Shown: positions 23,301 through 62,640 of the stretch, in pieces | How positions within the stretch are numbered: position 1 is the stretch's first letter | How the letters are laid out: every line of letters starts with the position of its first letter | From: Synaphobranchus kaupii | Taxonomy: Eukaryota > Chordata > Actinopteri > Anguilliformes > Synaphobranchidae | Reading direction: 5' to 3' | DNA: 64,000 nt | Assembly: GCA_029718625.1 (NCBI GenBank) | Contig: CM056376.1 | Span: 94,407,945 to 94,471,944, forward strand | The notes under the pieces: model-generated | The model's input: only the letters and a program-made list of their open reading frames with translations | What the model was told of the DNA's origin: nothing | Database searches by the model: none | Translations under genes and position numbers: made by a program

Positions 23301-26300
23301 AATTTCCATTCTGGGTCAGAACGTCTGTATTTGTTTTGGCCTGTGTGATTCACTATTCTGCGAGTTGACGCCGCCCACTGCCCATTACGAACAACCAGTA
23401 CTGCAGTACCCATTTTAAACGCTCGGTGTCAATGCTACATATAGCTCCTTTAAATAAAGTAATCATATTTAATCTTTGGTTGCATATCCTTTGCATGCCA
23501 TGACTTCCTGATGTCTGTGACCCAGCAACATCAAAAGGCTCTTGCTATTTTATTTTCAAGTACTCATACAAATTATACTATAACCTCTCTGCATTTGAAT
23601 GGAATTTGGGGGTGGGACTAGATTAAGCTGTAAATTACACTGGAATAGTATGGAGCACATAGCTGGCTAAATGGCTGTATGTCATCAAGGGTCTGAGGTA
23701 TCAAACGAGCCTCAAACCAGCACTCTGCTGCCAGATACAGTGCCCTCCACTATTATTGGCACCCCTGGTAAAGATGAGTTAAAAGGGTATTTTGTTTCTC
23801 ATAATAAATTTACTTCAATTAAAGGTTGGATTTTTCTCATTTTTTCAGTGTGAGATTAAGCTAATTCACCAAATGGTGAATTTTTCATAACCCTTTTTAC
23901 TCATCTTTACCAGGGGTGCCAATAATAGTGGAGGGCACTATATGTAGTATCAGATATGGATGGATCACTAAGGTTTCTCCTGACTCATTTTCCTATTGAA
24001 CTCTATGGAAAAATAAGTAAATTTTAATATTCATTTCCAGATTTACCTATCTATATATTTTGTATTTTATTTATTCATTGTTTTATTCATTTCCAGATAA
24101 AACTTTTTAATAAGTTTGAGTTTTTATATTTCAACATTTATTAATTCTCTTATATATTCATTTATCATTGTGGCACTCTCTGTGTTCCATGTACATCACC
24201 ACAAGTGAAGGGATTGGCAAAATATTCTAATAAAAGTTTGCACGCATCCTTTGTGTTTTCATATGCATAAAATGTTTTCACATCAGTTTCATGTTTTATA
24301 AATTTCAATATGGGCATTGATTTTCATGTAAGATCAAATCTATTGAACTTATGATCAAATGTGCCTGCGACCATTTCATAAATGAGGCCCTTGGCTCATA
24401 TCTGTTGTTTCCTACCTACACTTTCAATGTATTTCCTTTACCTCTGTTTTCTGCTACCCTGTTTCCACTCAGGATCACGGGATAGACATTGGGGATGTGT
24501 CAGAGAGAAAGAAACTCAGAGAAAGGCTAAAGTGTAAACCCTTCAAGTGGTACCTGGACAATGTTTATCCGCAGCTCGACACCTGGAATGACCTGGTGGC
24601 CTATGGCACTGTGAGTTACTTATGTTTACGGTGTTTACTGTATCCTTGAAATATGCACGCACACTTTTGTCCTTGAGGGTAGCTTCAGTATAAAAAGAAG
24701 AGATGCTTATTTTTAGGAGCATATGTTTTATATACGGCACTTAGAATTAAGAGATTCACCTGGAATTCTCGTTAGAATTTGATTCTAACAACATGCAAAA
24801 CTAGATGGTCTACTATTCCAGTGTGAATAAAACCTTGAGCATAGCCGAAACAGGATTCTGCCTTGAATTTGTCAAGATGGACCAGGTATTCTTTAATATA
24901 TTCTAACCAGTAAATGTCATGGTTTTGCAGCCTGTTTCGTTTCTGCTGATGTTGCCACTCGGGGCCATGAACAACAGGGCGCTCCTGTCTTCCGTGACTC
25001 ATTATGATTATTGGTTTTAGGTTTTTTGCTGGTTACATAAGCTCAGCGCCTTCTTTGTTCGGTGCTTTTGTGTTGTTACCCTTTTCTCCTTTTCCTCCTT
25101 GTTTGAGCTTATTTGTATTTTATTGAGCTGGTTTTTCTTTCACTTTCTGTCTATTTCCACTCGAGTCTTCGAGTCTGTTTTCGCCCTCTTTTCTGGGTTG
25201 TTTTCTGTTGGCTGATACGCCGGGGGTTATTTCCCCTTTGTTTATTTTTTGTTTTGTCAGGGTATTCCTGTTCTTTCCCCCAACTTGTGGTTATCCCACG
25301 TTTGTGGGTAGCTTTTAGATCCCCTTTCAGTCGCGTCTGGTTCTCCGACACCTTCCCCTCCCTCACAGTACACAAAAGCCATAATGGAGGTACCAGCGAC
25401 CCCGTCGGGGTTCGAACAAGTCGTGGCCACCCAGCACGCGGCTTTGGCCACTCATGAGGGGGTTATTCGCGCACTCCAAGCGCAGCAGCTGGTCATGCAG
25501 AACCAGCAGGTTGATCAGCTGCGCCGCCAGGAGGACTGTCTGCGCGATTTGGTGGACAGTGTTCACCTACTTGCTGGAGCGGCAGAGCCCACAGTCACCC
25601 AAGCATCTCCCCTTGAAAATCCCCATCACTGCATCTTCCACTCATATGGAGCCTAAACTCCAGCTCCCCCCTCCCATTATGACGGAGAGTCTGGGGGTTT
25701 CTGTCCCAATGTTAAATTTATTTTAAAGCGCAGCCTTCCCGCTTCTCCTCCCAGGACTCACATGTGGCACTCATCTTGTCGCTGCTTACCGGGACNNNNN
25801 NNNNNNNNNNNNNNNNNNNNNNNNNNNNNNNNNNNNNNNNNNNNNNNNNNNNNNNNNNNNNNNNNNNNNNNNNNNNNNNNNNNNNNNNNNNNNNNNNNNN
25901 NNNNNNNNNNNNNNNNNNNNNNNNNNNNNNNNNNNNNNNNNNNNNNNNNNNNNNNNNNNNNNNNNNNNNNNNNNNNNNNNNNNNNNNNNNNNNNNNNNNN
26001 NNNNNNNNNNNNNNNNNNNNNNNNNNNNNNNNNNNNNNNNNNNNNNNNNNNNNNNNNNNNNNNNNNNNNNNNNNNNNNNNNNNNNNNNNNNNNNNNNNNN
26101 NNNNNNNNNNNNNNNNNNNNNNNNNNNNNNNNNNNNNNNNNNNNNNNNNNNNNNNNNNNNNNNNNNNNNNNNNNNNNNNNNNNNNNNNNNNNNNNNNNNN
26201 NNNNNNNNNNNNNNNNNNNNNNNNNNNNNNNNNNNNNNNNNNNNNNNNNNNNNNNNNNNNNNNNNNNNNNNNNNNNNNNNNNNNNNNNNNNNNNNTCGCT

Positions 26301-40802: not shown

Positions 40803-42298
40803 TCTTCTTTGTTGTTGTACTCGACCAGTGCCGGCACTACATTTGTAGGTAATGTAAAGTATTGCTCTGCTGCCGTACTTCCACAGAGAATATAGGTCAG
40901 CACAAAGTAAAGGATCCAACGATAGTTTGACTTCAAAAATGATGGTATAAACACTCAAAATAACCCTGATAGACTGTCGTCATATTTTAATTGCTTTGGG
41001 TGCACTGTGGAGTGTTTAAGTGCGTTTGGTAGTGGATGCTATGGTTACCATAGAGTTGCGCTAGTATTAGCAACATGTGTTTGTCCAAAAGAAGGGACAG
41101 CATGGAATTAGCTGAAATGGTTTCCATCAATCAACTACATCATGGGTAAGTTGTAATTGAGACAAGATAGAGCCTCTGCTGGAGTTATAAAGCCTTAAGT
41201 GGAACACCCCCTAAATAGGACCTCTGTCAAGCTATCCACTCTTTAAAAATGCACGGTCAAACTATCCGCTCATCAAATTTGTGTGCGCAGCTAGGCTACA
41301 TTGTGTATAGTGGTCGTCTGGGAAGCGCAACGTCTTTAGGTAATGTCAGAAAAAGACAGAAAGAGCGATTTCTTGCCAAGACACCTGATAAAAATGTGTG
41401 GTGCCGTCTTTTTAACTAAAATTTTGAAAATGTAATAATATAGTAGGAAAGTAATTTAATAGGCTACTGTACTGTTGAAACGTAGCCTACTTGTGATTGA
41501 AATATTTTCAAATAGCCTAATTAGCTTCTCCAGAGTCCACACATACATTAAGATTGTATGAGGCTGAACACAAACTTACAGGTGCACACCCAACATGAAA
41601 ATGTTCCACAGCAGCCATTTGGAGATCTGGAAAAATGACCAATTAATGTTGTTATAATTGACCCTTCGCTAAACCCCTCCGCCAAGCGGCGATAGTCCAA
41701 TCATAGCCTAGCAACCATTACTAGGCAGTGGACCTCCGTCAAGCTTTCCTAGTTGTAGGTTAGCTTGTCATCATGGTCAAAAAATATTTGTACAAACTGG
41801 CAGATAAACGCTACTATCCACTGTGTGTGTCACAGATGGGTAAGTACAGTTGCAAGTGAGACTGGGTGGGGGGTTGGTAAATGCACTAATTACACGACAA
41901 CAGTGGCATTTAGAAACTCTGTATTCGGTATTGTTGTCACAAATTGTGTAAAAATAAAGCTAGAACATGGAGTTTGTTGTTTCCACTCAAAGTGTGGTTG
42001 CAAGAGCAATTAATTTCTCAATCAGGGGACCAGGGATTGAAATTCTCCTTGAAGCTCACAAACTGCAGTGGCCCCTGGAGGTATTGCAGGCTCTGGTGCC
42101 AAAAAGCAAATTTACCCATTGAAGTCTACGAAAAACTACGAAATTACCCAGGCCAAATATATACTATTTTGAACAGTTCTTTTAAATTCTAAAATTTCTT
42201 CACATCGAACTACAAACCCCAGTTCCAAAAACGTTGGGACAGTATGTAAAATGCACGTAAAATCAGAAAGCAGTGATTTGTAAATTCTCTTTTACATA
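40803..42298. other. Unassigned intergenic stretch
   Basis: No gene was recognised. The end (42215-42297, cccagttccaaaaacgttggg) resembles another fish Tc1-type terminus. Motifs such as gacctctgtcaagctatcc/gacctccgtcaagctttcc recur within the stretch. Confidence 0.35.
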
Positions 42299-43829
42299 CA
42301 CTACTCACAAAAAGTTAGGGATATTCGGCTTTCGGGTGAAATTTCAGGATGAACCTAAAATGCACTATAACCTTTACAGGTGAAATTAATTTGACCTTCT
42401 CTAAACTTTTGAATGCACATGTCCAACTATTCAATGTTTCAGTACTTTTTGCACAACTTTCTGTTCTCTAACAAGGAGCTGAACGGCAAAATTCACAACA
42501 GGTGTTTGATCCATGAATCGACCAATAAATTTCCTGGTTCAATTAGAATTGGTATTTAAACAGTCCTCTTCATCATGCTGTTCACATTTTGACATCATGA
42601 GACCAAGACGACACCTAACAATTGATCAACAGTACCTCGCCATTGCGAGGCTTCAAACAGGATGTTCTCAGAGGGAAGTGGCCACTGAGCTTAGAGTGTC
42701 ACAGAGTGTCATCAGCAGGTTGCAACAGAGATACAGAGAGACTGGAAGAGTCACAGAAAGGCATAGAAGTGGACGTCCTTTGGCCACATCCCACACTGAT
42801 GACCGCTTCATTGTGAACAGTGCCCTGCGGAACCGGATGATGAATGCCACTCAACTCCAGGCACATTTAAGGGAGGTGAGAGGCACCCAAGTGTCACGTC
42901 AGACCATTCGAAACCGTTTACATCAGCGTGGTCTGCGTGCTAGACGACCTGCAAGGGTACCTGACCACACCACCAGGCACAGGCGTCATCGTCTTGCATG
43001 GGCCAGGGAGCATTTACGCTGGACGAGGGACCAGTGGGCCTCAGTGCTGTTCTCTGATGAAAGTCGATTCACGTTGAGCAGAAATGATGGCCGCCAACGA
43101 TGTTGGAGACGTCAAGGAGAGCGCTATGCATCAGCCACTGTTGTCACCAGACGACCCTTTGGTGGTGGCGGTGTTACAGTGTGGGCAGGTGTGTCTAGTC
43201 AATACAGAACTGCCCTACACTTTGTGAATGGTACAGTGACAAGCCCATACTACCTGAATAACATCATTAATCCAGTCATTGTGCCCCTGCATGAACAACA
43301 CAGGCCTAATTTCATCTTCATGGACGACAATGCTCCAGCTCATCGAGGTCGCATCATTAGGGAAAGGCTGCTGGAGACTGGGGTACCTCAAATGGAGTGG
43401 CCTGCACTTTCTCCAGACCTGAATCCCATAGAAAACCTATGGGATCAGCTGACTCACCGTGTAGAGGCTCGTAACTCTGTACCCCAGAACCTCAATGACC
43501 TGAGGGCCGCCCTTCAAGAAGAGTGGGATGCCATGCCTCAGCAGACAATAAGTCGACTTGTGAACAGCATGAGACGTCGTTGTCAAGCTGTAATTGATGC
43601 TCAAGGGCACATGACAAGTTATTGAGACATTGACATTTTTGTTGTGGTATACCCACCACTGTTGTTGGCTTTTGTTTCAATAAATTGTTTGAGATGAGGA
43701 AATCACCATTGCATGCTTCTACTTAAATGCCCTACTTTCATGATACGTATAATATCACTGTAGCGTGAACTTACATTTTCCATAAATTTCACCCGAAAGC
43801 CAAATATCCCTAACTTTTTGTGAGTAGTG
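42299..43829 (+). mobile_element. Full-length Tc1/mariner element, 1531 bp
   Basis: Terminal inverted repeats cactactcacaaaaagttag and its complement are followed by ggatattcggctttcgggtg on one side and the matching inverse on the other, about 50 bp in all. TA flanks lie at 42297-42298 and 43830-43831. The internal transposase frame is uninterrupted. Confidence 0.93.
42597..43625 (+). CDS. Tc1-family DD34E transposase, intact
   Basis: The protein is 342 residues from the ATG at 42597. An in-frame ATG at 42513 would add 28 residues, but 342 is close to the usual Tc1 length. It has a paired-like bipartite helix-turn-helix DNA-binding region ([20 protein letters not shown] ... [19 protein letters not shown]), then a GRP(L) linker. 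The DDE core comprises VLFSDESRF (first Asp), [11 protein letters not shown] (second Asp) and [13 protein letters not shown] (Glu). It catalyses cut-and-paste transposition into TA. No stop or frameshift was seen, so it could be active or recently so. Confidence 0.93.
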
Positions 43830-43860
43830 TATATTTAATTGAAAACAGTAGCCTACAAAC

Positions 43861-44220: not shown

Positions 44221-44848
44221 TAAAACCTAACAGTAAAGATTACCAAATGAAATGAGTACGTTTTACTCAAATATTACAAAAAGTTACATTTACTTAACTG
44301 TAGTAAGTTACGAGAACACAATCACTGATAATTATTTGTAGAACTCAATCATATTAAAGGGTAAGTTCGCTATTTTGGACCTTGGACCCTATTTGCGGTC
44401 CGTCTTCCATGAACCTGACCCATGAAGTCCATTTTTTCGCTGATCGGTCCAGTATTGAGTTCGGTACAGATTTCCTGTAGGCTCTCACTGGGCTACAATG
44501 GAAGTGAACGGGGCAATCAGAAATGTTATGGAAAAACAACGATAAATGTGCTTTTATAGCTCAGTGTGTATTCTTACGGTCTCAGTATGCTCTCCTGTGA
44601 AATGTAGGCTATCGCAAACGCAAACCGAACGTTGAAACAACAGTTCCATTTGAAACAGAACTATTTCTCCGACCGCACTACCTCGCACTGTAAACTTCCG
44701 CAGTCTAGCTACGTTGTAGAGAGGCCGCTTGAAAAGCAGTTGATCACAAATCCTGACCTCCCGTTGGAGTTTACTAGCTAGTAGCCTACAGCAGAAATAT
44801 TTGTAACGCAGTTTTTGTAATCATCATTTGTAATAATTCATCACAGCA

Positions 44849-45145
44849 ATGGTGCGCGAATGTGCAGTCCCCGGTTGTGGGAATAAAATGTCTGGACGCT
44901 CAAATACCAGTTTTCACAGGCTCCCGTTCTCTGACCCAGAAAGATTGAGACTTTGGCTGGTTGTCTTACGGATCGACATAAACACTCCAGTCAATCAACT
45001 CCGTTTGGCAGACTCGCGAGTTTGTGGAGCGCATTTCGACGCTACTGATTTCTGTAACCGCAAATCAGAAGCAAAACACTGGTTTCTAAAGAACACAGCT
45101 GTTCCTCGTGTCGGACCTGCAGCACTATCAAGCACCGGAGCGGAG
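44849..45145 (+). pseudogene. THAP-domain first exon of a Kolobok-type transposase, rest missing
   Basis: It starts MVRECAVPGCGNK and carries the C2CH zinc-binding pattern (CAVPGC ... VCGAHF), TSFHRLPFSDPERLRLWL and the closing AVPRV motif. These features define the ~90-residue THAP DNA-binding module. A donor site ggag|gtaagt ends the exon at 45145. No continuing exon with a catalytic domain was found before the right terminus, so the element is non-autonomous. Confidence 0.8.
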
Positions 45146-45384
45146 GTAAGTTATATTTAGCTATAACGTTACTAACATTTTTATTTTTTTTGAGCGCGTC
45201 CTCTGACCCAGCACTCAATACCAACTAACAAAATCCGAGCTTGACATAAGTTGTTTTCTTGTAACAAAACTGTCGGAAACGTTCATCAACTATAACTTTT
45301 TACAATTCTATAATGTTTTATTTACAAATGCTTGACGCATGGTGTCCTGTCCAAAGTTCTCATCTATCACATATCTGTTGGCAG

Positions 45385-45744
45385 TCATAGTGTAATGGTA
45401 ATCAATGGAGATGATCCAGTGTCATCCACGGATACATCCAGGTTTTCAATGGCATTCGGTAGCAACAGATCCCACTCCCTACAACACAAACTTTCCTCCT
45501 CTCTAGGCATCTGCTTGCACCTCTTGCAAGAACACCAAAAGTCCCCCGAAATTATTGGTCTAGCCTCGGCAGCGACTTCGGATAACATTACCTGCGCAAC
45601 TTCAGCCTCTCTCTCTTCTCTTGCTCTCTTATCATCCATCTCTTGTAGTTCCGTGTCCGTGTATTCTGGCTCAAATCTGTAGCCAGTAACGTCAAAGTCA
45701 AAATCGAATTCTTCGTCTTCGTAATCATTATAGTCATCCATCAT
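45385..45744 (-). CDS. Small ORF with P2X7-tail-like Cys motif inside the Kolobok element
   Basis: From the ATG pair at 45744/45741 the ORF encodes about 119 residues. It has an acidic start (MMDDYNDYEDEEFDFDFD), then GYRFEPEYTDTELQEMDDKR, a charged helix, and the pattern FWCSCKRCKQMPREEESLCC followed by REW. The CxCxxCxxMPxxxExxCC spacing resembles the zinc-binding part of the P2X7 receptor intracellular domain, which is common in fish mobile-element proteins. The ORF is open and short for a two-domain protein. Its role in transposition is unknown. Confidence 0.6.
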   Translation of the reverse strand: MMDDYNDYEDEEFDFDFDVTGYRFEPEYTDTELQEMDDKRAREEREAEVAQVMLSEVAAEARPIISGDFWCSCKRCKQMPREEESLCCREWDLLLPNAIENLDVSVDDTGSSPLITITL

Positions 45745-46212
45745 CCAAGTTTTTTTGTGGAAATTGTAGCCTACGTTGCTGCAGGTAAACAAACGCAGAC
45801 TGCTCAGCTAGATAGTTTCGTAAACGGCCGGCACACCTTCCCGCTCCCCTACCCCCGACACATAGTACTCCGCGAGTGCAGCGCAAACAAGCAACAGAGA
45901 AATGCTTACTTCCAAGCCATGCCAAGTACGTAAAAATGTTCGGATAGAGATACATTTCACAGGAGAGCATACTGAGACCGGTAACAATACACCCTGAGCT
46001 TCCCGTCTCATTTATTGTACATGAAAGCACATTTATCGAACATTTCTGATTGCCCCGTTCACTTCCATTGTAGCCCAGTGAGAGCCTACAGGAAATCTGT
46101 ACCGAACTCAATACTGGACCGATCAGCGAAAAAATTGACTTCATGGGTCAGGTTCATGGAAGACGGACCGCAAATAGGGTCCAAGGTCCAAAATAGCGAA
46201 CTTACCCTTTAA

Positions 46213-46605
46213 GTGTTATTAATTTGTTGTGGGAATTTAAGTAAACACAACTTAATCTAATTACATTGCAATTAATTAATTTAATGTAGTTTAAAACCCC
46301 TCTTCCTTGTTCAACTCTCAATTTACTTATTGACAAAAAATGACATTTTCCCCTCATATTTATAATGTTTGTCTCAAGTAGATTAAGTTGATGTGAGTGA
46401 GCATATCTGAACCATAGATCTGTATATTAGAAACTAATATGCATGTCTACAGTGCTGCCTGAGAAACAGTTGCCATGTCTTGATGAAGTAGCCTTCTCCT
46501 TTAAGCATTTTTCCTAATTTCTGTACTGCACCAGAGACCCTCCCCCAGGGGGAGACAACAATCATTGGCCTAAATTGAGTGCCAACGCAGAGAAGTCTTG
46601 TTGTA
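46213..46605. other. Unassigned stretch
   Basis: No gene or element was recognised here. Confidence 0.4.
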
Positions 46606-46739
46606 ACATTAGCTAAAACTGTTGTTAAGACCCCCCTCCCCCTCAAGTTAATGTTGTATTTATAATTCTTTATTCTGCAATATGTAGTGTGCACAAAGCC
46701 AACTTAGCTATTTTTGTTCTAGCTCAGACAGCCAGTTAA

Positions 46740-46908
46740 TGTGTTTCTGAAGCATTGGGTCTTTTTGGCGCCCTTTATTTTACTTGCTAACTTCAACTGC
46801 CTGCTCGTCGAGACTCGACGCAGAGAAGGAAGAGTTGGGGAGAAATTCTTAACTCTGGACAACTGGAGCCGTTTTCTATACAGCCTGCTCCTCTTCATTT
46901 GCAAGGTA
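46740..46908 (+). other. Possible first exon or promoter-proximal sequence of the downstream gene
   Basis: A segment (gtgtttctgaagcattggg to ttgctaact) recurs at 58207-58261, directly next to the second gene. It is followed by a candidate donor, tgcaag|gtaact, at 46908. An open frame runs through it but resembles no known protein, so a non-coding first exon is the better guess. Confidence 0.3.
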
Positions 46909-47460
46909 ACTTTATTATTTGTATGTGTGGTTGGTGCTTTAGCGTTTTATTCTCACTTTGCCAGCTAGCTAGCTGCCATCGTCAGGTAATTTACTAACGT
47001 GAACGTTAGTTCGCTACGTTCCTAGTGCATGCATTGCAGGCAGTTAATCACATAGCCTAAGTTACTTCAACATGTAACTGTTAGCTAGCTGTATTTCGAT
47101 AATTTATAATATCTACTGTAGCTTTAATGTTTTCTGAAACTACTTGATGTTTAGCTCGGTAGATAGCACTAGTAACGTTAATTTCAGTTGAATTTGGTGT
47201 CCAGCCATGCACAGCTAGCTAGCCAGCAACAGTATTTAGGCGCTAACTTTAGCTAGCTAACTTAAATAATCTTCCGTGGGGATGATTTTTCACAAGCTGT
47301 TTTTATTCGGATGAATGGTATGTGTGGAGTTCTTGGCCTCGTCATTGAAAAGTTTAGTAGCTAAGTAATCTGATTAGTGGAGTTCGCAGGGTGCGCATCG
47401 TGTTACTGTTTGCTTGCTAACGTGCTAGCAACCTGGCTAACCTAACATTATAGCTAAAAC

Positions 47461-47496
47461 TGTTGACACCCCCCCCCCCCCCCCCTCCCCCCCTCA
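47461..47496 (+). repeat. Poly-C tract
   Basis: A homopolymer-like C run with single T interruptions. It is a likely source of length error. Confidence 0.85.
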
Positions 47497-47756
47497 AGTT
47501 TGTTATATTTATAATTATTTATCATTTATTCTGCAATATGTAGTGTGCACAAAGCCAACGTTGCTATTTTTGTTCTAGCTCAGACAGCAATTTAAACGAC
47601 AATGAAGTTGGCTCCCGATTCGCAGCTCCCGATTCGGAATTGCCGGTCCACCTTAAATCGGTCGCGAAAAGCGATTGTGTGCTTTCACGGTCATCCTTCC
47701 GCTTTTTTCTCCGCTAAATGTAATTGGCTCAACATTCTGATAGCCTAGTTGTGTGT

Positions 47757-47764
47757 ACATACAT

Positions 47765-47852
<88 letters not shown>
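47757..47852. repeat. (CATA)n(CA)n microsatellite
   Basis: Six catac-type units are followed by about 38 CA dinucleotides. The corresponding place in the right arm (58003-58047) has aaaaataaa repeats and a short tatgtatacacacac tract. Confidence 0.95.
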
Positions 47853-47854
<2 letters not shown>

Positions 47855-50800
47855 CACCGTTTTGAAATAATCGCACTCCAAACTTCCTATGTCCACCAAT
47901 GTAAATTGCTGAAAAAGGTGAAATTTTGAATAGGATTTTCTTGCCAATTTTAGAACGTCTCAAACTTTTGACACTTGGGTATGAGAGAAGAGGTTCTCCA
48001 CTATATCTGACCCGAGTTGGGTGAAATATTACTGTAGCATTTTGAAATAATCCCACTTCAAACTTTCTATGTAATCCAATGTAAATCGACTGAAAAAGGT
48101 GAAATTTTGAATAGGATTTTCTTGCCAATTTTAGAACGTCTCAAACTTTTGACACTTGGGTATGAGAGAAGAGGCCCTCCACTATATCTGACCCGAGTTG
48201 GGTGAAATATTACTGTAGCATTTTGAAATAATCCCACTTCAAACTTTCTATGTAATCCAATGTAAAACGACTGAAAAAGGTGAAAGTTTGAATAGGATTT
48301 TCTTGCCAATTTTAGAACGTCTCAAACTTTTGACACCTGGGTATGAGAGAAGAGGTCCTCCTCTATATCTGACCTGAGTTGGGTGAAATATTACTGTAGC
48401 ATTTTGAAATAATCCCACTTCAAACTTTCTATGTAATCCAATGTAAATCGACTGAAAAAGGTGAAATTTTGAATAGGATTTTCTTGCCAATTTTAGAACG
48501 TCTCAAACTTTTGACACTTGGGTATGAGAGAAGAGGTCCTCCACTATATCTGACCCGAGTTGGGTGAAATATTACTGTAGCATTTTGAAATAATCCCACT
48601 TCAAACTTTCTATGTAATCCAATGTAAAACGACTGAAAAAGGTGAAAGTTTGAATAGGATTTTCTTGCCAATTTTAGAACGTCTCAAACTTTTGACACTT
48701 GGGTATGAGAGAAGACGTCCTCCACTATATCTGACCCGAGTTGGGTGAAATATTACTGTAGCATTTTGAAATAATCCCACTTCAAACTTTCTATGTAATC
48801 CAATGTAAAACGACTGAAAAAGGTGAAAGTTTGAATAGGATTTTCTTGCCAATTGTAGAACGTCTCAAACTTCTGACACTAGGGTATGAGAGAAGAGGTC
48901 CTCCTCTATATCTGACCTGAGTTGGGTGAAATATTACTGTAGCATTTTGAAATAATCCCACTTCAAACTTTCTATGTAATCCAATGTAAAACGACAGAAA
49001 AATGTGAAAGTTTGAATAGGATTTTCTTGGCAATTTTAGAACGTCTCAAACTTTTGACACTTGGGTATGAGAGAAGAGGTCCTCCACTATATCTGAACCA
49101 AGTTGGGTGAAATATTACTGTAGCATTTTGAAATAATCCCACTTCAAACTTTCTATGTAATCCAATGTAAATCGACTGAAAAAGGTGAAATTTTGAATAG
49201 GATTGTCTTGCCAATTTTAGAACGTCTCAAACTTTTGACACTTGGGTATGAGAGAAGAGGCCCTCCACTATATCTGACCCGAGTTGGGTGAAATATTACT
49301 GTAGCATTTTGAAATAATCCCACTTCAAACTTTCTATGTAATCCAATGTAAAACGACTGAAAAAGGTGAAAGTTTGAATAGGATTTTCTTGCCAATTTTA
49401 GAACGTCTCAAACTTTTGACACCTGGGTATGAGAGAAGAGGTCCTCCTCTATATCTGACCTGAGTTGGGTGAAATATTACTGTAGCATTTTGAAATAATC
49501 CCACTTCAAACTTTCTATGTAATCCAATGTAAAACGACAGAAAAAGGTGAAAGTTTGAATAGGATTTTCTTGGCAATATTAGAACGTCTCAAACCTTTGA
49601 CACTTGGGTATGAGAGAAGAGGTCCTCCACTATATCTGACCCAAGTTGGGTGAAATATTACTGTAGCATTTTGAAATAATCCCACTTCAAACTTTCTATG
49701 TAATCCAATGTAAAACGACTGAAAAAGGTTAAAGTTTGAATAGGATTTTCTTGCCTATTTTAGAACGTCTCAAACTTTTGACACCTGGGTATGAGAGAAG
49801 AGGTCCTCCTCTATATCTGACCCGAGTTGGGTGAAATATTACTGTAGCATTTTGAAATAATCCCACTTCAAACTTTCTATGTAATCCAATGTAAATCGAC
49901 TGAAAAAGGTGAAATTTTGAATAGGATTGTCTTGCCAATTTTAGAACGTCTCAAACTTTTGACACTTGGGTATGAGAGAAGAGGCCCTCCACTATATCTG
50001 AACCAAGTTGGGTGAAATATTACTGTAGCATTTTGAAATAATCCCACTTCAAACTTTCTATGTAATCCAATGTAAATCGACTGAAAAAGGTGAAATTTTG
50101 AATAGGATTGTCTTGCCAATTTTAGAACGTCTCAAACTTTTGACACTTGGGTATGAGAGAAGAGGCCCTCCACTATATCTGACCCGAGTTGGGTGAAATA
50201 TTACTGTAGCATTTTGAAATAATCCCACTTCAAACTTTCTATGTAATCCAATGTAAAACGACTGAAAAAGGTGAAAGTTTGAATAGGATTTTCTTGCCAA
50301 TTTTAGAACGTCTCAAACTTTTGACACCTGGGTATGAGAGAAGAGGTCCTCCTCTATATCTGACCTGAGTTGGGTGAAATATTACTGTAGCATTTTGAAA
50401 TAATCCCACTTCAAACTTTCTATGTAATCCAATGTAAAACGACAGAAAAAGGTGAAAGTTTGAATAGGATTTTCTTGGCAATATTAGAACGTCTCAAACC
50501 TTTGACACTTGGGTATGAGAGAAGAGGTCCTCCACTATATCTGACCCAAGTTGGGTGAAATATTACTGTAGCATTTTGAAATAATCCCACTTCAAACTTT
50601 CTATGTAATCCAATGTAAAACGACTGAAAAAGGTTAAAGTTTGAATAGGATTTTCTTGCCTATTTTAGAACGTCTCAAACTTTTGACACCTGGGTATGAG
50701 AGAAGAGGTCCTCCTCTATATCTGACCCGAGTTGGGTGAAATATTACTGTAGCATTTTGAAATAATCCCACTTCAAACTTTCTATGTAATCCAATGTAAA

Positions 50801-52690
50801 TCGACTGAAAAAGGTGAAATTTTGAATAGGATTGTCTTGCCAATTTTAGAACGTCTCAAACTTTTGACACTTGGGTATGAGAGAAGAGGCCCTCCACTAT
50901 ATCTGACCCAAGTTGGGTGAAATATTACTGTAGCATTTTGAAATAATCCCACTTCAAACTTTCTATGTAATCCAATGTAAAACGACTGAAAAAGGTGAAA
51001 GTTTGAATAGGATTTTCTTGCCAATTGTAGAACGTCTCAAACTTTTGACACTAGGGTATGAGAGAAGAGGTCCTCCTCTATATCTGACCTGAGTTGGGTG
51101 AAATATTACTGTAGCATTTTGAAATAATCCCACTTCAAACTTTCTATGTAATCCAATGTAAAACGACAGAAAAATGTGAAAGTTTGAATAGGATTTTCTT
51201 GCCTATTTTAGAACGTCTCAAACTTTTGACACCTGGGTATGAGAGAAGAGGTCCTCCTCTATATCTGACCCGAGTTGGGTGAAATATTACTGTAGCATTT
51301 TGAAATAATCCCACTTCAAACTTTCTATGTAATCCAATGTAAATCGACTGAAAAAGGTGAAAGTTTAAATAGGATTTTCTTGCCAATTTTAGAACGTCTC
51401 AAACTTTTGACACTAGGGTATGAGAGAAGAGGTCCTCCTCTATATCTGACCTGAGTTGGGTGAAATATTACTGTAGCATTTTGAAATAATCCCACTTCAA
51501 ACTTTCTATGTAATCCAATGTAAAACGACAGAAAAATGTGAAAGTTTGAATAGGATTTTCTTGGCAATATTAGAACGTCTCAAACTTTTGACACTTGGGT
51601 ATGAGAGAAGAGGTCCTCCACTATATCTGACCCAAGTTGGGTGAAATATTACTGTAGCATTTTGAAATAATCCCACTTCAAACTTTCTATGTAATCCAAT
51701 GTAAAACGACTGAAAAAGGTTAAAGTTTGAATAGGATTTTCTTGCCTATTTTAGAACGTCTCAAACTTTTGACACCTGGGTATGAGAGAAGAGGTCCTCC
51801 TCTATATCTGACCCGAGTTGGGTGAAATATTACTGTAGCATTTTGAAATAATCCCACTTCAAACTTTCTATGTAATCCAATGTAAATCGACTGAAAAAGG
51901 TGAAAGTTTAAATAGGATTTTCTTGCCAATTTTAGAACGTCTCAAACTTTTGACACCTGGGTATGAGAGAAGAGGTCCTCCTCTATAGCTGACCCGAGTT
52001 GGGTGAAATATTACTGTAGCATTTTGAAATAATCCCACTTCAAACTTTCTATGTAATCCAATGTAAATCGACTGAAAAAGGTGAAAGTTTGAATAGGATT
52101 TTCTTGCCAATTTTAGAACGTCTCAAACTTTCAACACTAGGGTATGAGGTAGGACACTGCCGTTGTACCCTTGAGCAAGGTACTTAACCTGAATTGCTTC
52201 AGTATATATCCAGCTGTATAAATGGATAATATGTAAAACATGATTAAAAAAAAAGTTGTGTAAGTCGCTCTGGATAAGAGCATCTGCTAAATGCCTGTAA
52301 TGTAATGTAATGTAATGTAATGAGAGAAGAGGTCCTCCACTATATCTGACCTGAGTTGGGTGAAATATTACTGTAGCATTTTGAAATAATCCCACTTCAA
52401 ACTTTCTATGTAATCCAATGTAAAACGACAGAAAAATGTGAACGTTTGAATAGGATTTTCTTGCCAATTTTAGAACGTCTCAAACTTTTGACACTTGGGT
52501 ATGAGAGAAGAGGTCCTCCTCTATATCTGACCCGAGTTGGGTGAAATATTACTGTAGCATTTTAAAATAATCCCTCTTCAAACTTTCTATGTAATCCTTT
52601 GTAAATCTACTGAAAAAGGTGAAATTTTGGATAGGAATTTCTTTCCTATTTTAGAAGGTGTCAAACTTTTGACACTTGGATATGACAGAC
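47853..52690 (-). repeat. 181-bp satellite array, left arm, about 26 units
   Basis: Strict 181-bp periodicity, for example starts at 48067, 48248, 48429 and 48610. Each unit contains gtagcattttgaaataatcc, cacttcaaactttctatgta, ggattttcttgccaatttta, gaacgtctcaaacttttgac and gggtatgagagaagagg. Higher-order structure is visible: the five-unit block starting at 49153 is repeated nearly unchanged 905 bp later, from 50058. The innermost unit (about 52560-52680) is diverged. A SINE interrupts the array at 52149-52319. Confidence 0.95.
52149..52319 (+). mobile_element. V-SINE-type SINE inserted in the satellite
   Basis: It reads gtaggacactgccgttgtac, ccttgagcaaggtacttaac, then the conserved gtcgctctggataagagcat and ctgctaaatgcctgtaatg, with a (TGTAA)n tail. 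The interrupted satellite resumes with atgag, which also precedes the SINE (52144-52148 and 52320-52324), a short target-site duplication. Confidence 0.85.
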
Positions 52691-53099
52691 GAACGAGGTT
52701 CTATTTCATATCGGTCAACACGCCACACTATGGGGCATCCTCGCTGAGAGGAAGAGCTGCTGGGAAACTGAATAGCAAATTAACCACCACTACGGGCGGA
52801 ACCACGTCACGCCATAAATATGGCGCTTGTACGCCACCCGGCCTCTTTTGCCGACTTGAGGGCACTTGCCATCCTGAGGGTGCAAGGTTCCCCGCCTGAC
52901 CACGGTATTGGTCACAGAATACCAAATAACGTTGGGCGCGGTATATAGTGGGGTACCAGGACCGCAGGTCATTGCATTAGTGCGAATCCTGTAAAAAACA
53001 AAATGCACTATTGGCTGCTGTTCTTACCAGAAGAGCAAGCTCAAGTGGGAAACGTGGAAAATAACCACCGGGTAATAGAAACCCTAAATCATCACAAAA

Positions 53100-54264
53100 T
53101 TACATACAAGGTTGCTCCGCTGCCCTGAGGACAGAGGAGGCAACTGATGCCGATGATGCTATGTCCAGGTGATAAAACCTGTTGAAAGTGAGTGATGAGG
53201 CCCAGCCCGCTGCTGCGCAAATGTCAGCAATTGTGGCGCCACGTAGTAAGGCCCAGGAGGTAGCTACGCCCCGAGTGGAGTGAGCTACCACGCCTGTGGG
53301 AGGGGATGTGTCAGAACTGCTGTACGCCATGGAACCGTCTCTATGATCCAGAGGGCCGCGTGCTGTACAATAGGGCAAAGCCCTTCATAGCCCCACCAAA
53401 ACAATAAAAGGATTTCTGGTCTTCCTCACTGCACTTGTGCAGGAGATATAAGACCGTAGAGCCCGGACGGGGCACAGTGAGTGCAGCCTGGCTTCTTCAG
53501 GGGTCTCGTGGGGAGGATGGTGAAACGGCTCCAACACCATAGACAGAGATGTATGACCGCGAGAGGACCTTTGGCTGAAACACAAGGTTAAGAAGCAGAA
53601 AGACCGATGAGCTACTGTCACCCAACCGCATACAGGAGGGTTTTACTGACAGTGCATGCAGCTCGCTCACACGCCTCGCGGAGGCGATAGCGAGCAGGAA
53701 TGCAGTCTTCAAGGTTAGACTGAGTCCATCCAGCTCGAAGGGCGGCTCAGTGAGTGGATTCAAAGCCAGTTGTAAGTCCCACGAAGGGACTAAGTTAGAC
53801 CTGGGTGGGCAAAGCCACCTGGCTCCTCAGGGAAACTGGCTGGCGAGAGGGTGAGACCCCACCATCAGGCCCTCAATACGCTCATGGCTGTCAAATATGG
53901 CTGCCAGATAACACCTTAGCGTGGACTCCACTAGCCCCTCTTTGAAGAGGGACTGGAGGAATGCCAAAACGACTGAACTGTCATAATTGGGTAAACCCAT
54001 TATTGTGGTACCAGCAGCTAACATCTGCCCACTTCCCAGCATAGAGCGCCCTCGTAGATGGGGCTTTGATGCCTGAAATGTTTCCAGTACTGCTGGCCCC
54101 AGGCCCTGTGGCCACTCCCACCTAGGGGCCAAGCAGGTCATACAACTGTGGATTTGGTTGCCATAGCAGACCTGCGGCAGCAAATCCGCTCTGGTCGGGA
54201 GGCGCGAAGGGGTGCCCACTAGCAACTCCCTAAATGAACTGCACTGTCTGGGTGCAGGCACCAT
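53100..54264 (-). pseudogene. DIRS tyrosine recombinase, frameshifted
   Basis: The N-terminal part is at 54264-53827. The catalytic domain starts FELDGLSLTLKTAFLLAIAS, with the first Arg in ARRVSELHALSV (about 53690-53650). The C-terminal part has AHSTRGVATSWALLRG (His-x-x-Arg, about 53295-53250), ICAAAGWASSLTFNRFYHLD and the likely Tyr nucleophile in FYHLD. Three frames are needed, so no functional recombinase is made. In DIRS elements this enzyme integrates a circular DNA copy without target-site duplication. Confidence 0.8.
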
Positions 54265-54294
54265 TTCCCCGCTCTCAGGCCACCCCTGGACAGC

Positions 54295-55480
54295 CTATCG
54301 GCTTCCACATTGATTGTGCCCAGTACATGTACTGCCTTCGGGGACATACCCTAGGCCTGTGCCCACAGCAGGAGTTGACATGCTTTGCATGTCGAGTTGG
54401 AGACCAAAGCCCACCCTGTTGGTTGAGGTAGGAGACCACAGTGGAATTGTCTGTCCGGACAAGAACCTGTCTGTGTCGGACCACTGGGAGGAATGGGTCA
54501 ATGCCTGATGCACTGCCTCCGTTTCTGGCAGGTTGATGTGCTTCCCGACCCATGAGTGCCTCCACAACCCTTGCAGGGAATGACCCTCTCCGACCGCTCC
54601 CAGCCAGTCTTGGAGGCGTCCGTGGTGGTCGTCACCCTAGGTAACACACTGGGTAAATAGGGAGGAGTCGCCGCCTGTCCTCGTGCGGGCTTACTCCCTG
54701 TGCTGCCGCCCAACGCTGTAATGGACACGTATGCAGCAGCCCAAGTGGCACCACCTGGGCCGCTGAAGCCATCAAGCCAAGCAACCTCCGGTTAATGTTT
54801 ACTGTCACCTGCTGCGCTGCAGCAAAGTGGGACAGACTGTCCATCAAAAACATGCTAAAAAACCGGGCCCAGGAAAACCCTCTCTCTGGAGGGGGTGAGG
54901 TGGCTATTTTCCCCTGTTCAGGGTCAGGCCCAAGCTAGCTAAGTGGGCCAGTACTGACCTTGTATCCCTTCTGGCTTGCTCCTCTGAAGGATTGCAGATT
55001 AGCCAGTCGTCCAGGTAGTTCGCAATGCGAATCCCTTAGTGACAGAGTGGGATCAGCGTGTCTCCTTGCACTTCATAAAAAGTGTGTGGGGCCAGGGCTA
55101 GGCCGAAGGAGAGGACCGAGTGATCGTACCCTTTGCCTTGGAAGGAAAAGCGGAGGTACTTCCGGTGATCCCGGTGTATGGGGATATGGAAGTATACATC
55201 CGGCAGGGACACAGATGTGAACCAATCGCTGTCTCCCACCAGTAGGGGGAGACTGGAACGGCAGAGCATGTGCAAGGGCAGGCGCTTTAGGAAGCAGTTG
55301 AGCCCTCTCCGGCCGCGTGTGAACTGGAGCTTGTACCCCGACTCCAAGGTGCTGAGCACTGAAGGACATCGGGTACGTGGGCGCCATAGCAAGGTTACAG
55401 GGGGTAGCGGAGGACATATCCTGCGGAAATCTCTCCAACACACCACAGGCAGCGTAGTGTCGGCTAGCTAAGCCAACCAA
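54295..55480 (-). pseudogene. DIRS reverse transcriptase and RNase H, broken
   Basis: The RT part contains DWFTSVSLPDVYFHIPIHRD, HRKYLRFSFQGKGYDHSVLS and FGLALAPHTF, typical of DIRS/Ngaro-type RTs. The RNase H part has VLVRTDNSTVVSYLNQQGG. Frame changes occur between the segments, and the stretch between 55036 and 54567 is only partly recognisable. Confidence 0.8.
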
Positions 55481-55830
55481 GCAGAGGCCTAGTAGGCTGG
55501 CGCAGGTGGCTAGCAGTAGGCCTGAATCAGTAGCACTGAAGGGCTGCCAGAGACCGCTAAAACCTCAGGTAGCGTGTGTCCACTGACACAGAGGCTACTT
55601 CCGGCTTGTCCCTTTTCCCTTGCTTAGTAACAACAAGGAGAAAGAAAATTCAATGCCTCAACAGGACAAAATACAATCAGAAGATATCGGCATAACCCGA
55701 TCTACTTCTGCAAGGAAAACCGGCAGTGAACTGCCTAACAAAAGGTAACAACTCTACCGAGTAATGGTAGCCAAACAAACAGCAACAAACCGTGATTCCG
55801 TGTTGCTGGGGAGGGAAAGCCCCAGAAAGC

Positions 55831-58002
55831 CAACTCACCCAACTCAGGTCAGATATAGAGGAGGACCTCTTCTCTCATACCCAGGTGTCAAAAGTTTGAG
55901 ACGTTCTAAAATTGGCAAGAAAATCCTATTCAAACTTTCACCTTTTTCAGTCGTTTTACATTGGATTACATAGAAAGTTTGAAGTGGGATTATTTCAAAA
56001 TGCTACAGTAATATTTCACCCAACTCAGGTCAGATATAGTGGAGGACCTCTTCTCTCATACCCAAGTGTCAAAAGTTTGAGACGTTCTACAATTGGCAAG
56101 AAAATCCTATTCAAACTTTCACCTTTTTCAGTCGTTTTACATTGGATTACATAGAAAGTTTGAAGTGGGATTATTTCAAAATGCTACAGTAATATTTCAC
56201 CCAACTCAGGTCAGATATAGTGGAGGACCTCTTCTCTCATACCCAAGTGTCAAAAGTTTGAGACGTTCTACAATTGGCAAGAAAATCCTATTCAAACTTT
56301 AACCTTTTTCAGTCGTTTTACATTGGATTACATAGCAAGTTTGAAGTGGGATTATTTCAAAATGCTACAGTAATATTTCACCCAACTCGGGTCAGATATA
56401 GTGGAGGACCTCTTCTCTCTTACCCAAGTGTCAAAAGTTTGAGACGTTCTAAAATTGGCAAGAAAATCCTATTCAAACTTTCACATTTTTCTGTCGTTTT
56501 ACATTGGATTACATAGAAAGTTTGAAGTGGGATTATTTCAAAATGCTACAGTAATATTTCACCCAACTCAGGTCAGATATAGTGGAGGACCTCTTCTCTC
56601 ATACCCAGGTGTCAAAGGTTTGAGACGTTCTAAAATTGGCAAGAAAATCCTATTCAAACTTTCACCTTTTTCAGTCGTTTTACATTGGATTACATAGAAA
56701 GTTTGAAGTGGGATTATTTCAAAATGCTACAGTAATATTTCACCCAACTCGGGTCAGATATAGTGGAGGACCTCTTCTCTCATACCCAAGTGTCAAAAGT
56801 TTGAGACGTTCTAAAATTGGCAAGAAAATCCTATTCAAACTTTCACATTTTTCTGTCGTTTTACATTGGATTACATAGAAAGTTTGAAGTGGGATTATTT
56901 CAAAATGCTACAGTAATATTTCACCCAACTCGGGTCAGATATAGTGGAGGACCTCTTCTCTCTTACCCAAGTGTCAAAAGTTTGAGACGTTCTAAAATTG
57001 GCAAGAAAATCCTATTCAAACTTTCACATTTTTCTGTCGTTTTACATTGGATTACATAGAAAGTTTGAAGTGGGATTATTTCAAAATGCTACAGTAATAT
57101 TTCACCCAACTCGGGTCAGATATAGTGGAGGACCTCTTCTCTCATATCCAAGTGTCAAAAGTTTGAGACGTTTTAAAATTGGCAAGAAATTCCGATTAAA
57201 AATTCAAAGTTTTATTCAGTAGATTGACATTGGATTACATAGAAAGTTTGAAGAGGGATTATGTGAAAATGCTACAGTAATATTTCACCCAACTCAGGTC
57301 AGATATAGGGGAGGACCTCTTCTCTCATACCCAAGTGTCAAAAGTTTGAGACGTTCTAAAATTGGCAAGAAAATCCTATTCAAACTTTCACCTTTTTCAG
57401 TCGTTTTACATTGGATTACATAGAAAGTTTGAAGTGGGATTATTTCAAAATGCTACAGTAATATTTCACCCAACTCGGGTCAGATATAGTGGAGGACCTC
57501 TTCTCTCTTACCCAAGTGTCAAAAGTTTGAGACGTTCTAAAATTGGCAAGAAAATCCTATTCAAACTTTCACATTCTGTCGTTTTACATTGGATTACATA
57601 GAAAATTTGAAGTGGGATTATTTCAAAATGCTACAGTAATATTTCACCCAACTCGGGTCAGATATAGTGGAGGACCTCTTCTCTCATACCCAAGTGTCAA
57701 ATGTTTGAGACGTTCTAAAATTGGCAAGAAAATCCTATTCAAAATTTCACCTTTTTCAGTCGATTTACATTGGATTACATAGAAAGTTTGAAGTGGGATT
57801 ATTTCAAAATGCTACAGTAATATTTCACCCAACTCGGGTCAGATATAGTGGAGAACCTCTTCTCTCATACCCAAGTGTCAAAAGTTTGAGACGTTCTAAA
57901 ATTGGCAAGAAAATCCTATTCAAAATTTCACCTTTTTCAGCAATTTACATTGGTGGACATAGGAAGTTTGGAGTGCGATTATTTCAAAACGGTGCAGTAT
58001 CC
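55831..58002 (+). repeat. 181-bp satellite array, right arm, about 12 units
   Basis: It is the same unit as the left arm but on the opposite strand, with starts at 55912, 56093, 56274, 56455, 56636, 56817 and 56998. One unit (about 57160-57300) is diverged. The next starts at 57362, and a 3-bp shorter unit follows at 57543. The first unit is cut at caactcaggtcagatatag, at the DIRS junction. Confidence 0.95.
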
Positions 58003-58535
58003 AAAATAAAAAAATAAAAAAATAAAAAAATAAATATATGTATGTATACACACACAGAACTAGGCTATCAGAATGTTGAGCCAATTAGATTTAGCGGAGA
58101 AAAAAGCGGAAGGATGACCGTGAAAGCATACAATCGCTTTTCGCGACCGATTTAAGGTGGACCGGCAATTCCGAATCGGGAGCCAACTTCAGCGTCGTGC
58201 CATACAATGTGTTTCTTAAGCATTGGGTCTTTTTGGCGCCCTTTATTTTACTTGCTAACTTAAAACACTGCATGATATAAACTTGTCACACAAAGCTAAC
58301 TGAAGGTAGATGACACAATTTTTTGTGCTTGGTATAGCCTTAACTAGGCCAATTGTGTGCTTATTTCCATAGCCAATAAGGGTCTGTGCTCGCCCCCCCC
58401 ATTTTGACTTTTAATGCATCTTTGATTTTGAAGCAGTTGCAGTATTATCACAAGCTTCAAGACTAAAGAGACAGACCTCAAGGCCAGAAAATGCTGTGGA
58501 AATGTAAGTTATGCCAATTTTCTTGCTCTGTCAAG

Positions 58536-58924
58536 GTTTTGATGGCTGGAAAAACTCACTGAAATTTAAAATGGGTAATTACAGGAGCAAACTGAGAAGA
58601 GCCGGATGGCCAGAGGTTGCAGTGAATGGTGGTAAACGGAGCAGGAGCAGCCCAGATGGAGAACCCTCACGTGCCAACATTAAACGACCAAGACGAGCTG
58701 AGATTAACTTTCTCCCAAACTATCCTCAAGGCTTAGATGCCACAAGCCTGGAAGCTTTAAGGCAGGAAATGGTGGAAGAACTAAAGAAAACAGAGAAAGA
58801 TTTAATGATGATAAACCACCATATGCAAAGGACATTTGCACTCAGACGTCAGGAAATTGTGCAGTCCAGTCTCCCGATAGAGGACTTCAAGTCAAGATGG
58901 CCGGCACTGTTTCTTGAAGCTCAG
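58536..58924 (+). CDS. SAMD3-like family exon (core)
   Basis: The acceptor is gctctgtcaag and the donor is gctcag|gtaagt. It enters in phase 1 and leaves in phase 0. It contains the WKNSLKFKMGNYRSKLR block and an Arg/Lys-rich, possibly nuclear-localising segment. A splice from the candidate donor at 58503 would leave a 32-bp intron, too short for a vertebrate, so the true upstream exon is elsewhere. Confidence 0.7.
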
Positions 58925-59044
58925 GTAAGTATTCTAATAGACATACATGTCAGGTTAGGTAATTGTCCAGTTAGTGTCTTGTGAATGAACTATTCTTTTT
59001 TTTCTGTGTGTTCACCTGTGTTTACAATTTGTCTTTTGCTTCAG

Positions 59045-61860: not shown

Positions 61861-62640
61861 CTTCCAGGTTAATTTATGACACTGCCTGGTTCAAACGCAT
61901 GATTTGGCATAAAAGAAGGGGAGACAAGCCCATCTGGGAGCATCGTATCCGATCTCCCACACCGTGCAGATTGTGTATTTTGGGTAGGGAGCATCGTATC
62001 CGATCTCCCACACCGTGCATATTGTGTATTTTGGGTAGGGAATATCGCAATTCGATTTCCCACACCTGTGCAGATTTCTGTGTGTGTGTGTAGCTGAAGC
62101 AGGCCGGTAAGATATTTACTCTGTGTTTTCTTTTCTTAATTTCTATGTTTTGTAATTGACCTAATTTTAAGATAATGACCTACCTGCCTGTGAATAAATT
62201 CTTATTATTTTAACTTGCGTGGTCTCCATGACTCTAATCCATTTTTTACCCTTTCAGCCTAAATTACGACTGAATACTCGGGGAAAATTCTGACCAATGA
62301 CCAACTGATCAGTGGCGGGGTACAGAAAGTGGAGATTCTAAGTTGGTAGGCGGCTAAGGTCGGTCATTAACAGGTTTAGTGAATGTACGGCTCTGGGAAT
62401 TTGACGTGGAGAGCCCATGGACGTTTTTACGTCGGTTCTTGTCAAATTCGCCTTAAGGAGCCCATTTAGTGCGCGCTAACCTGGGCTCGCAACTATCGAT
62501 GTAAAATATAATACATGTATTGTGTTAGCCAGACCCCAACCTCTGAGTTTCTCCACCGAACCGAGATTCGGCAATAGTGTTAATCCCGGGAGCATATATT
62601 GAGTAATGGTGGCATACATGGATGAGTCGAGTGTAACCAC
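61861..62640 (+). other. LTR-like stretch with three 51-bp repeats
   Basis: Three head-to-tail copies begin near 61937, 61988 and 62039 (gagcatcgtatccgatctcc, cacaccgtgcagattgtg, tattttgggtag); the third is diverged. A TATA-poor stretch and an aataaa (62193) followed by taacttgcgtggtctcc then resemble the R-U5 part of a retroviral or other LTR. No coding domain follows in the window. This is a tentative call. Confidence 0.35.

Follow-up and report, generated by a model that had tools for sequence, protein, structure and literature searches.

Transposable elements with tandem repeats inside long inverted arms have been described in Drosophila and Meloidogyne, and we report here on a locus of this kind in the fish Synaphobranchus kaupii: an element of ~10.6 kb within a 64,000-nucleotide stretch of contig CM056376.1 (positions 94,407,945 to 94,471,944, assembly GCA_029718625.1; hereafter the window, in whose coordinates all positions are given). 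The closest known system is Tetris of Drosophila virilis, a likeness of architecture and not of compared sequence. According to the available extracts of its description (PMC4079207), Tetris has fold-back arms in which an outer flanking domain is followed by ~220-bp tandem repeats, with target-site duplications (TSDs) of 8-10 bp, no transposase found, a repeat number that varies between alleles, and repeats that have also built longer satellite-like arrays. Tm1, a Mutator/fold-back element of Meloidogyne, resembles our locus in its composite terminal inverted repeats (TIRs) containing tandem repeats and its mostly 9-bp TSDs; it differs, as far as the extracts of PMC3169594 describe it, in repeats of ~14 bp, copies of 1,080 and 2,593 bp, and a known member with a putative transposase. 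Galileo of Drosophila likewise combines long TIRs with internal tandem repeats of ~210 bp (F subfamily), present in unequal numbers in the two TIRs of a copy, but belongs to the P superfamily, has a THAP transposase and carries two or three repeats per TIR; the same extracts (PMC3573991, PMC3688188) describe transposase binding sites within the repeats and arms that change their repeat number independently.

For vertebrates, a reference title in the accessible part of PMC12628747 names tandem repeats 'riding on' a miniature inverted-repeat transposable element in Xenopus (Hikosaka and Kawahara). As far as this title alone goes, it is a vertebrate DNA element with lineage-specific tandem repeats, like ours, and tandem repeats on a DNA element are therefore no novelty among vertebrates by themselves. 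Among the titles listed by searches of the open-licence literature, none concerned satellite-armed fold-back elements of fish or other vertebrates; those listed for a 181-bp fish satellite did not concern fish, and six 20-base strings from the repeat unit and the TIR had no match there.

Between 47596 and 58198 the window contains inverted arms made mostly of head-to-tail 181-bp units, with a retrotransposon fragment between them. The long inverted arms with tandem subrepeats that define a fold-back element are present, and a paralogous copy of the insertion site runs uninterrupted nearby. We consider it probable that 47596-58198 is a non-autonomous fold-back DNA transposon that landed in one copy of a sequence duplicated locally and whose arms hold an amplified 181-bp repeat. 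By analogy, we place it among the Tetris-like fold-back elements, as one whose arrays are long and whose loop is a retroelement fragment, an addition to a known kind. Unlike Tetris, it combines 26 and 12 units in one copy, a DIRS-like fragment as core and a fish host; Tetris units also have a 37-bp stretch in common with the flanking domain, whereas our 181-bp unit is without detectable similarity to the TIR, and family copies and genomic arrays are documented in the extracts on Tetris (PMC4079207), whereas our element is known from one locus.

Architecture of the element

From outside to inside, each arm consists of a TIR, a microsatellite linker and 181-bp tandem units, and the two arms stand in mirror orientation:

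47596-47756, plus strand: left TIR, with a 14-bp internal duplication (BLAST to right TIR)
47757-47853, plus strand: left linker, CATA/CA microsatellite (Tandem Repeats Finder, TRF, and sequence)
47860-52692, minus strand: left arm array, units L01-L26 (TRF, BLAST, unit alignment)
52149-52319, plus strand: L2/UnaL2-tailed insertion within L24, flanked by ATGAG (Rfam and sequence)
52693-55834, minus strand: core, frameshifted DIRS-like fragment (weak PF00078 matches, motifs)
55835-57999, plus strand: right arm array, units R12-R01 (TRF, BLAST, unit alignment)
~58000-58051, plus strand: right linker, AAAATAAA and TATG microsatellite (TRF and sequence)
58052-58198, minus strand: right TIR (BLAST to left TIR)

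The TIRs are ~150 bp long. Compared with the inverted right TIR, the left one matches over 132 bp at 97.7% identity (47625-47756) and, in its outermost part, over 27 bp at 92.6% (47596-47622), the match stopping exactly at 47596/58198. Divergence is ~2-3% when a 14-bp indel is left out, this being the internal duplication that is extra in the left TIR. Whereas observed/expected CpG stands at 0.52 for the window and 0.44-0.46 for the arrays, it reaches 1.38 for the left TIR; the high value could mean that this TIR is young or unmethylated, a point that 161 bp is too short to press.

A preliminary description of this DNA had proposed near-matching TIRs of ~150 bp ending at 47596 and 58198 and leading into a 181-bp repeat that is minus-oriented on the left and plus-oriented on the right. 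The TIRs and the orientations agree with our alignments. TRF places period-181 arrays at 47860-52689 (26.7 copies) and 55835-57989 (11.9 copies), and all unit matches listed are minus in the left array and plus in the right, with none listed elsewhere in the window. The direct junction did not hold, as the arrays lie inside the TIRs but are separated from them by microsatellite linkers that are unlike each other in the two arms. Similarly, the left array does have about 26 units, as described, but it is not continuous: it is broken in its 24th unit by the L2/UnaL2-tailed insertion, where Rfam RF00436 (UnaL2) matches at 52247-52300 with 66.8 bits. UnaL2, the 3' end of a long interspersed nuclear element, has two matches in the window and came originally from eel; these matches and the general repeat content suggest by themselves that the host is a ray-finned fish. 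For comparison, the arrays were divided into 26 left and 12 right units, each set numbered from the outside; L01, L24 and L26 are partial, and the short stretch after the L24 insertion (52320-52363) was excluded.

Two candidate properties of the repeat unit were tried and rejected. The TIR is not a detectable source of the 181-bp unit, since the best local alignment scores (15 and 14) compare with shuffle means of 15.6 and 15.8. A stable hairpin within a single unit strand was likewise discarded (z=0.92, with 165 of 200 shuffles folding equally well).

The insertion site

Self-comparison with the arrays masked, together with local alignment, identified an uninterrupted paralogue of the insertion site ~850 bp leftward:

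46604-46796, plus strand: uninterrupted paralogue of the insertion site (self-comparison, local alignment)
47587-47595, plus strand: left copy of the probable 9-bp TSD, GCAATTTAA (6/9 to the right copy, 7/9 to the paralogue)
58199-58207, plus strand: right copy of the probable 9-bp TSD, GCCATACAA (6/9 to the left copy, 6/9 to the paralogue)

A sequence of ~190 bp thus occurs twice within ~1 kb, once intact and once, as 47443-47595 plus 58206-58264, split by the element. In the left half, 46631-46739 matches 47480-47595 at 86.4% (E 4e-31), and the local alignment extends back to 46604; in the right half, 46738-46796 matches 58206-58264 at 96.6% (E 8e-21). The two halves overlap by 2 bases in the uninterrupted copy. 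Because this copy, which is a paralogous and not an allelic empty site, runs uninterrupted across the point, 47596 to ~58198-58205 is inserted relative to it, and if the element ends with its TIRs, the target duplication is 9 bp. At this position the uninterrupted copy reads GCCAGTTAA. With only the 9-bp length considered, the probability of reaching 6/9 identity is 0.012 for random 9-mers drawn from the flanks, and that of finding GCCA together with at least 4/7 identity in the right-hand 7 bases is 0.0044. We regard the 9-bp TSD as probable but degenerate, suggestive rather than proof. The uninterrupted site and the probable TSD together bear out the earlier proposal that the fold-back unit was inserted as one piece. 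Members of the Mutator superfamily make TSDs of 8-10 bp; by analogy only, the candidate 9-bp TSD and the long TIRs suggest that the element may be Mutator-like.

Several observations weigh against a transposon. Divergence is ~2-3% between the TIRs but amounts to 3 of 9 bases between the TSD copies, and therefore either conversion of the TIRs or a spurious TSD must be assumed. No transposase was seen among the core pieces scanned (see below), and the TIR-bounded unit has one copy, with no second, in the window. Mirror order between the arms is also poor: the sum over all 12 ranks is 79, where permutation gives a mean of 95.9 (P=0.066); for ranks 3-12 the corresponding values are 77 and 71 (P=0.93). 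Only the outer two units are clearly mirror-ordered.

It is unlikely that the structure arose instead by local inverted duplication, that is, by palindrome formation from a segment with a TIR-like sequence and a tandem array. The absence of a transposase among the pieces scanned and of another known copy would suit such an origin, as would TSD copies that are merely 6/9 alike, and the microsatellites adjacent to the arrays could have mediated the rearrangement. However, the paralogous site runs through the insertion point unbroken, with no piece of the element in it, the ends are symmetric at 47596/58198, and neither outer flank has an inverted match listed within the window.

We think it very unlikely that the element belongs to the P superfamily, as a relative of Galileo and not a Mutator-like element. 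P-type elements make TSDs of 7-8 bp, whereas the TIR ends and the paralogous site give 9 bp here; an open reading frame (ORF) with a THAP domain does lie ~2.4 kb leftward, but it belongs to a separate, TTAA-flanked inverted-repeat element. What speaks for a Galileo-like origin is the occurrence of ~210-bp tandem repeats in some Galileo TIRs, in unequal numbers between arms, as the extracts of PMC3573991 describe.

History of the arms

Comparison of units between the arms of the putative transposon involves three further features:

49081-50906, plus strand: exact 921-bp tandem repeat at 905-bp offset (identity of 49081-50001 and 49986-50906)
52545-52692, minus strand: innermost left unit L26, divergent, groups with R05 (variants, tree)
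57102-57284, plus strand: divergent unit R05 (4 exclusive variants in common with L26)

The outermost units L01 and R01 have no differences over their shared columns and represent a private variant, the other 36 units differing from L01 at 8-23 positions and from R01 at 11-26. L02 and R02 differ at 2, and the longest exact match between the arms, 287 bp, lies at the outer ends. At the other boundary, L26 and R05 have 4 variants present in no other unit (P=0.0003 under random variant placement). Exclusive sharing of variants joins only 4 unit pairs in this alignment, of which the strongest two, L01/R01 with 8 variants and L26/R05 with 4, both link one arm to the other. The unit tree joins L01 and R01 at 100/100 and L26 and R05 at 92/86, values from a bootstrap that had not settled.

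The interiors of the arrays behave differently from these boundaries. R12, the innermost right unit, is identical to L03, L09 and L14, so unit types are common to both arms. Mean differences between units are 7.6 within the left arm, 8.7 within the right and 8.4 between arms; the nearest unit lies in the same arm for 27.7 of 38 units, against 21.2 in shuffles (P=0.0115), and the tree requires 9 changes of arm label, against 10.1 when shuffled. In the left array, 49081-50001 is repeated exactly as 49986-50906, a 921-bp repeat at an offset of five units (905 bp). The units lie inside the arms and have multiplied there, at least in the left one, where the exact 921-bp repeat is found; a wider role as carrier and expansion site of a satellite, as the preliminary description proposed, is hypothetical. 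R05 is fifth from the outside, with 7 units between it and the core; on the conjecture that R05 formerly stood at the inner boundary, units would have been added inside it in the right array as well.

In our reading, the arms are an old pair that share their boundary units; their interiors appear to have changed separately, the left one recently. The low divergence of the outer ends, set against the divergent pair L26/R05, fits conversion from arm to arm, although the ends may instead have a shared recent origin. Two simpler arrangements were rejected: a perfect palindrome, since the interior units are out of mirror order, and a simple recent copying of one arm from the other, since the units of the two arms are intermixed in the tree and differ alike within and between arms.

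An assembly artefact, in which the two arrays are really one or the arms derive from a hairpin read, is highly improbable: tandem arrays are frequently misassembled, and a 500-base run of N (25796-26295) marks an assembly gap in the window, away from the element, but the arms are not copies of each other (their linkers differ, they have 26 and 12 units, and their interiors lack mirror order), the passage from TIR through linker to unit 1 is read independently in each arm, the paralogous site is in accord with both flanks, and there is no N inside the element. The assembled unit numbers may be wrong even if the orientation of the arms is correct.

A decayed retroelement fragment between the arms

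The core (52690-55834), which has no other BLAST match in the window, is frameshifted and carries stops. Its reverse transcriptase (RT) region consists of two open pieces on the minus strand within 55233-54904, whose PF00078 matches (E=0.0034 and 0.0002) both fall short of the curated cut-off; it contains a YLDD motif. Further along, in other frames, is a piece with an HSTR motif, the recombinase region being placed by eye at ~54050-53100. In the available portion of a survey of DIRS1-like elements (PMC3266345), YL/IDD and HSTR are given as motifs of pol and recombinase, HSTR in only 13 of 28 annotated elements, and gag, inverted terminal repeats and internal complementary regions as further element parts. 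Our core has the same orientation of RT and putative recombinase regions and both motifs; the inverted terminal repeats and internal complementary regions described there were not found here, and no gag was recognized by eye.

No recombinase profile in Pfam, PHROGs or NCBIfam matched four core pieces (the PHROGs scan covered 4 pieces and the NCBIfam scan 6), and the recombinase label is consequently tentative, based on motif and order. Alignment scores from end to end and from end to interior fell within the shuffle range for DIRS inverted terminal and internal complementary repeats; besides the satellite units, the inverted pairs in the core are two short internal ones of 23 and 19 nt at 78-79%. 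Inspection by eye of three minus frames, with no gag profile tried, revealed no gag, including in the ~0.6 kb that separates the right array from the first RT match (55233), where the frame 55073-55564 matched no Pfam family. Nine minus-strand core pieces, of 53 stop-to-stop frames listed, contained no transposase when scanned against Pfam. Two core pieces had no hit among 18 and among 62 candidates at E<=0.001 in a protein database search that admitted only proteins of similar length; a 21-base pattern from the unit had 0 matches in viral and prokaryotic contig collections, and a TIR pattern 0 in the viral collection. These protein and contig blanks say little, because the contigs are viral or prokaryotic and the protein search was limited in length.

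Thus, of the tyrosine-recombinase retroelement that the preliminary description placed at the centre, the RT matches, although weak, and the YLDD and HSTR motifs stand, in what is a decayed fragment with no recombinase profile match. That description left two routes, insertion of a DIRS or its capture. A clean, complete DIRS insertion is not present now, because no terminal repeats were found, and the core does not simply interrupt one array, because the flanking arrays run in opposite directions. Insertion followed by truncation and capture of a fragment are both possible.

A model for the growth of the arms

In the model that we favour for the fold-back transposon, a Mutator-like transposase supplied in trans would have moved the whole element as a unit. 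The arrays would grow by unequal exchange or replication slippage, and gene conversion between the arms would keep the outer ends alike, unless these just happen to be the youngest part in common. The fragment that makes up the DIRS-like core is dead; it was captured, or else it was inserted into the spacer with later truncation. By analogy with Galileo, the 181-bp units may once have been transposase binding sites.

More speculatively, and in our view less likely than not, the locus could be a vertebrate fold-back transposon acting as a satellite nursery, in which conversion between arms makes the outermost units identical, the interiors grow freely by block duplication and part of a retrotransposon forms the loop. 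On this reading, if copies exist, the element would spread ready-made inverted satellite seeds.

The locus offers an anatomically clear case, in a vertebrate, of satellite-like units growing within the arms of an inserted DNA element, and its shared boundary units (L01/R01 and L26/R05) may separate arm conversion from array growth within one locus. If the 181-bp unit also forms free arrays, the path by which transposon arms are proposed to have become satellites in Tetris could be tested directly in an animal other than a fly.

Neighbouring features

The separate TTAA-flanked element to the left (44354-46212) has 174-bp inverted repeats (99% complementary) and convergent ORFs, with a THAP domain (PF05485, E 3.5e-15) on the plus strand and a P2RX7_C domain (PF20478, E 1.9e-5) on the minus strand. 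No transposase was recognized in the four frames scanned or read, and we take the element to be Kolobok-like from its TTAA flanks and THAP domain. Beyond it, 42296-43832 is a Tc1/mariner-type element with near-identical 49-bp inverted repeats at its ends (98%) and a stop-to-stop frame of 371 codons (42510-43625) matching DDE_3 and HTH_Tnp_Tc3_2; this element may be recent.

To the right, an open frame of 158 codons (58508-58981) begins ~310 bp from the fold-back element. It has no Pfam match above cut-off, and resembles an exon from a SAMD3-like gene family of fish. Several repeat pairs, some inverted and some direct, are common to ~7.5, 23, 32 and 59-63 kb and are probably dispersed repeats, and a 51-bp tandem repeat of 2.7 copies lies at 61936-62076.

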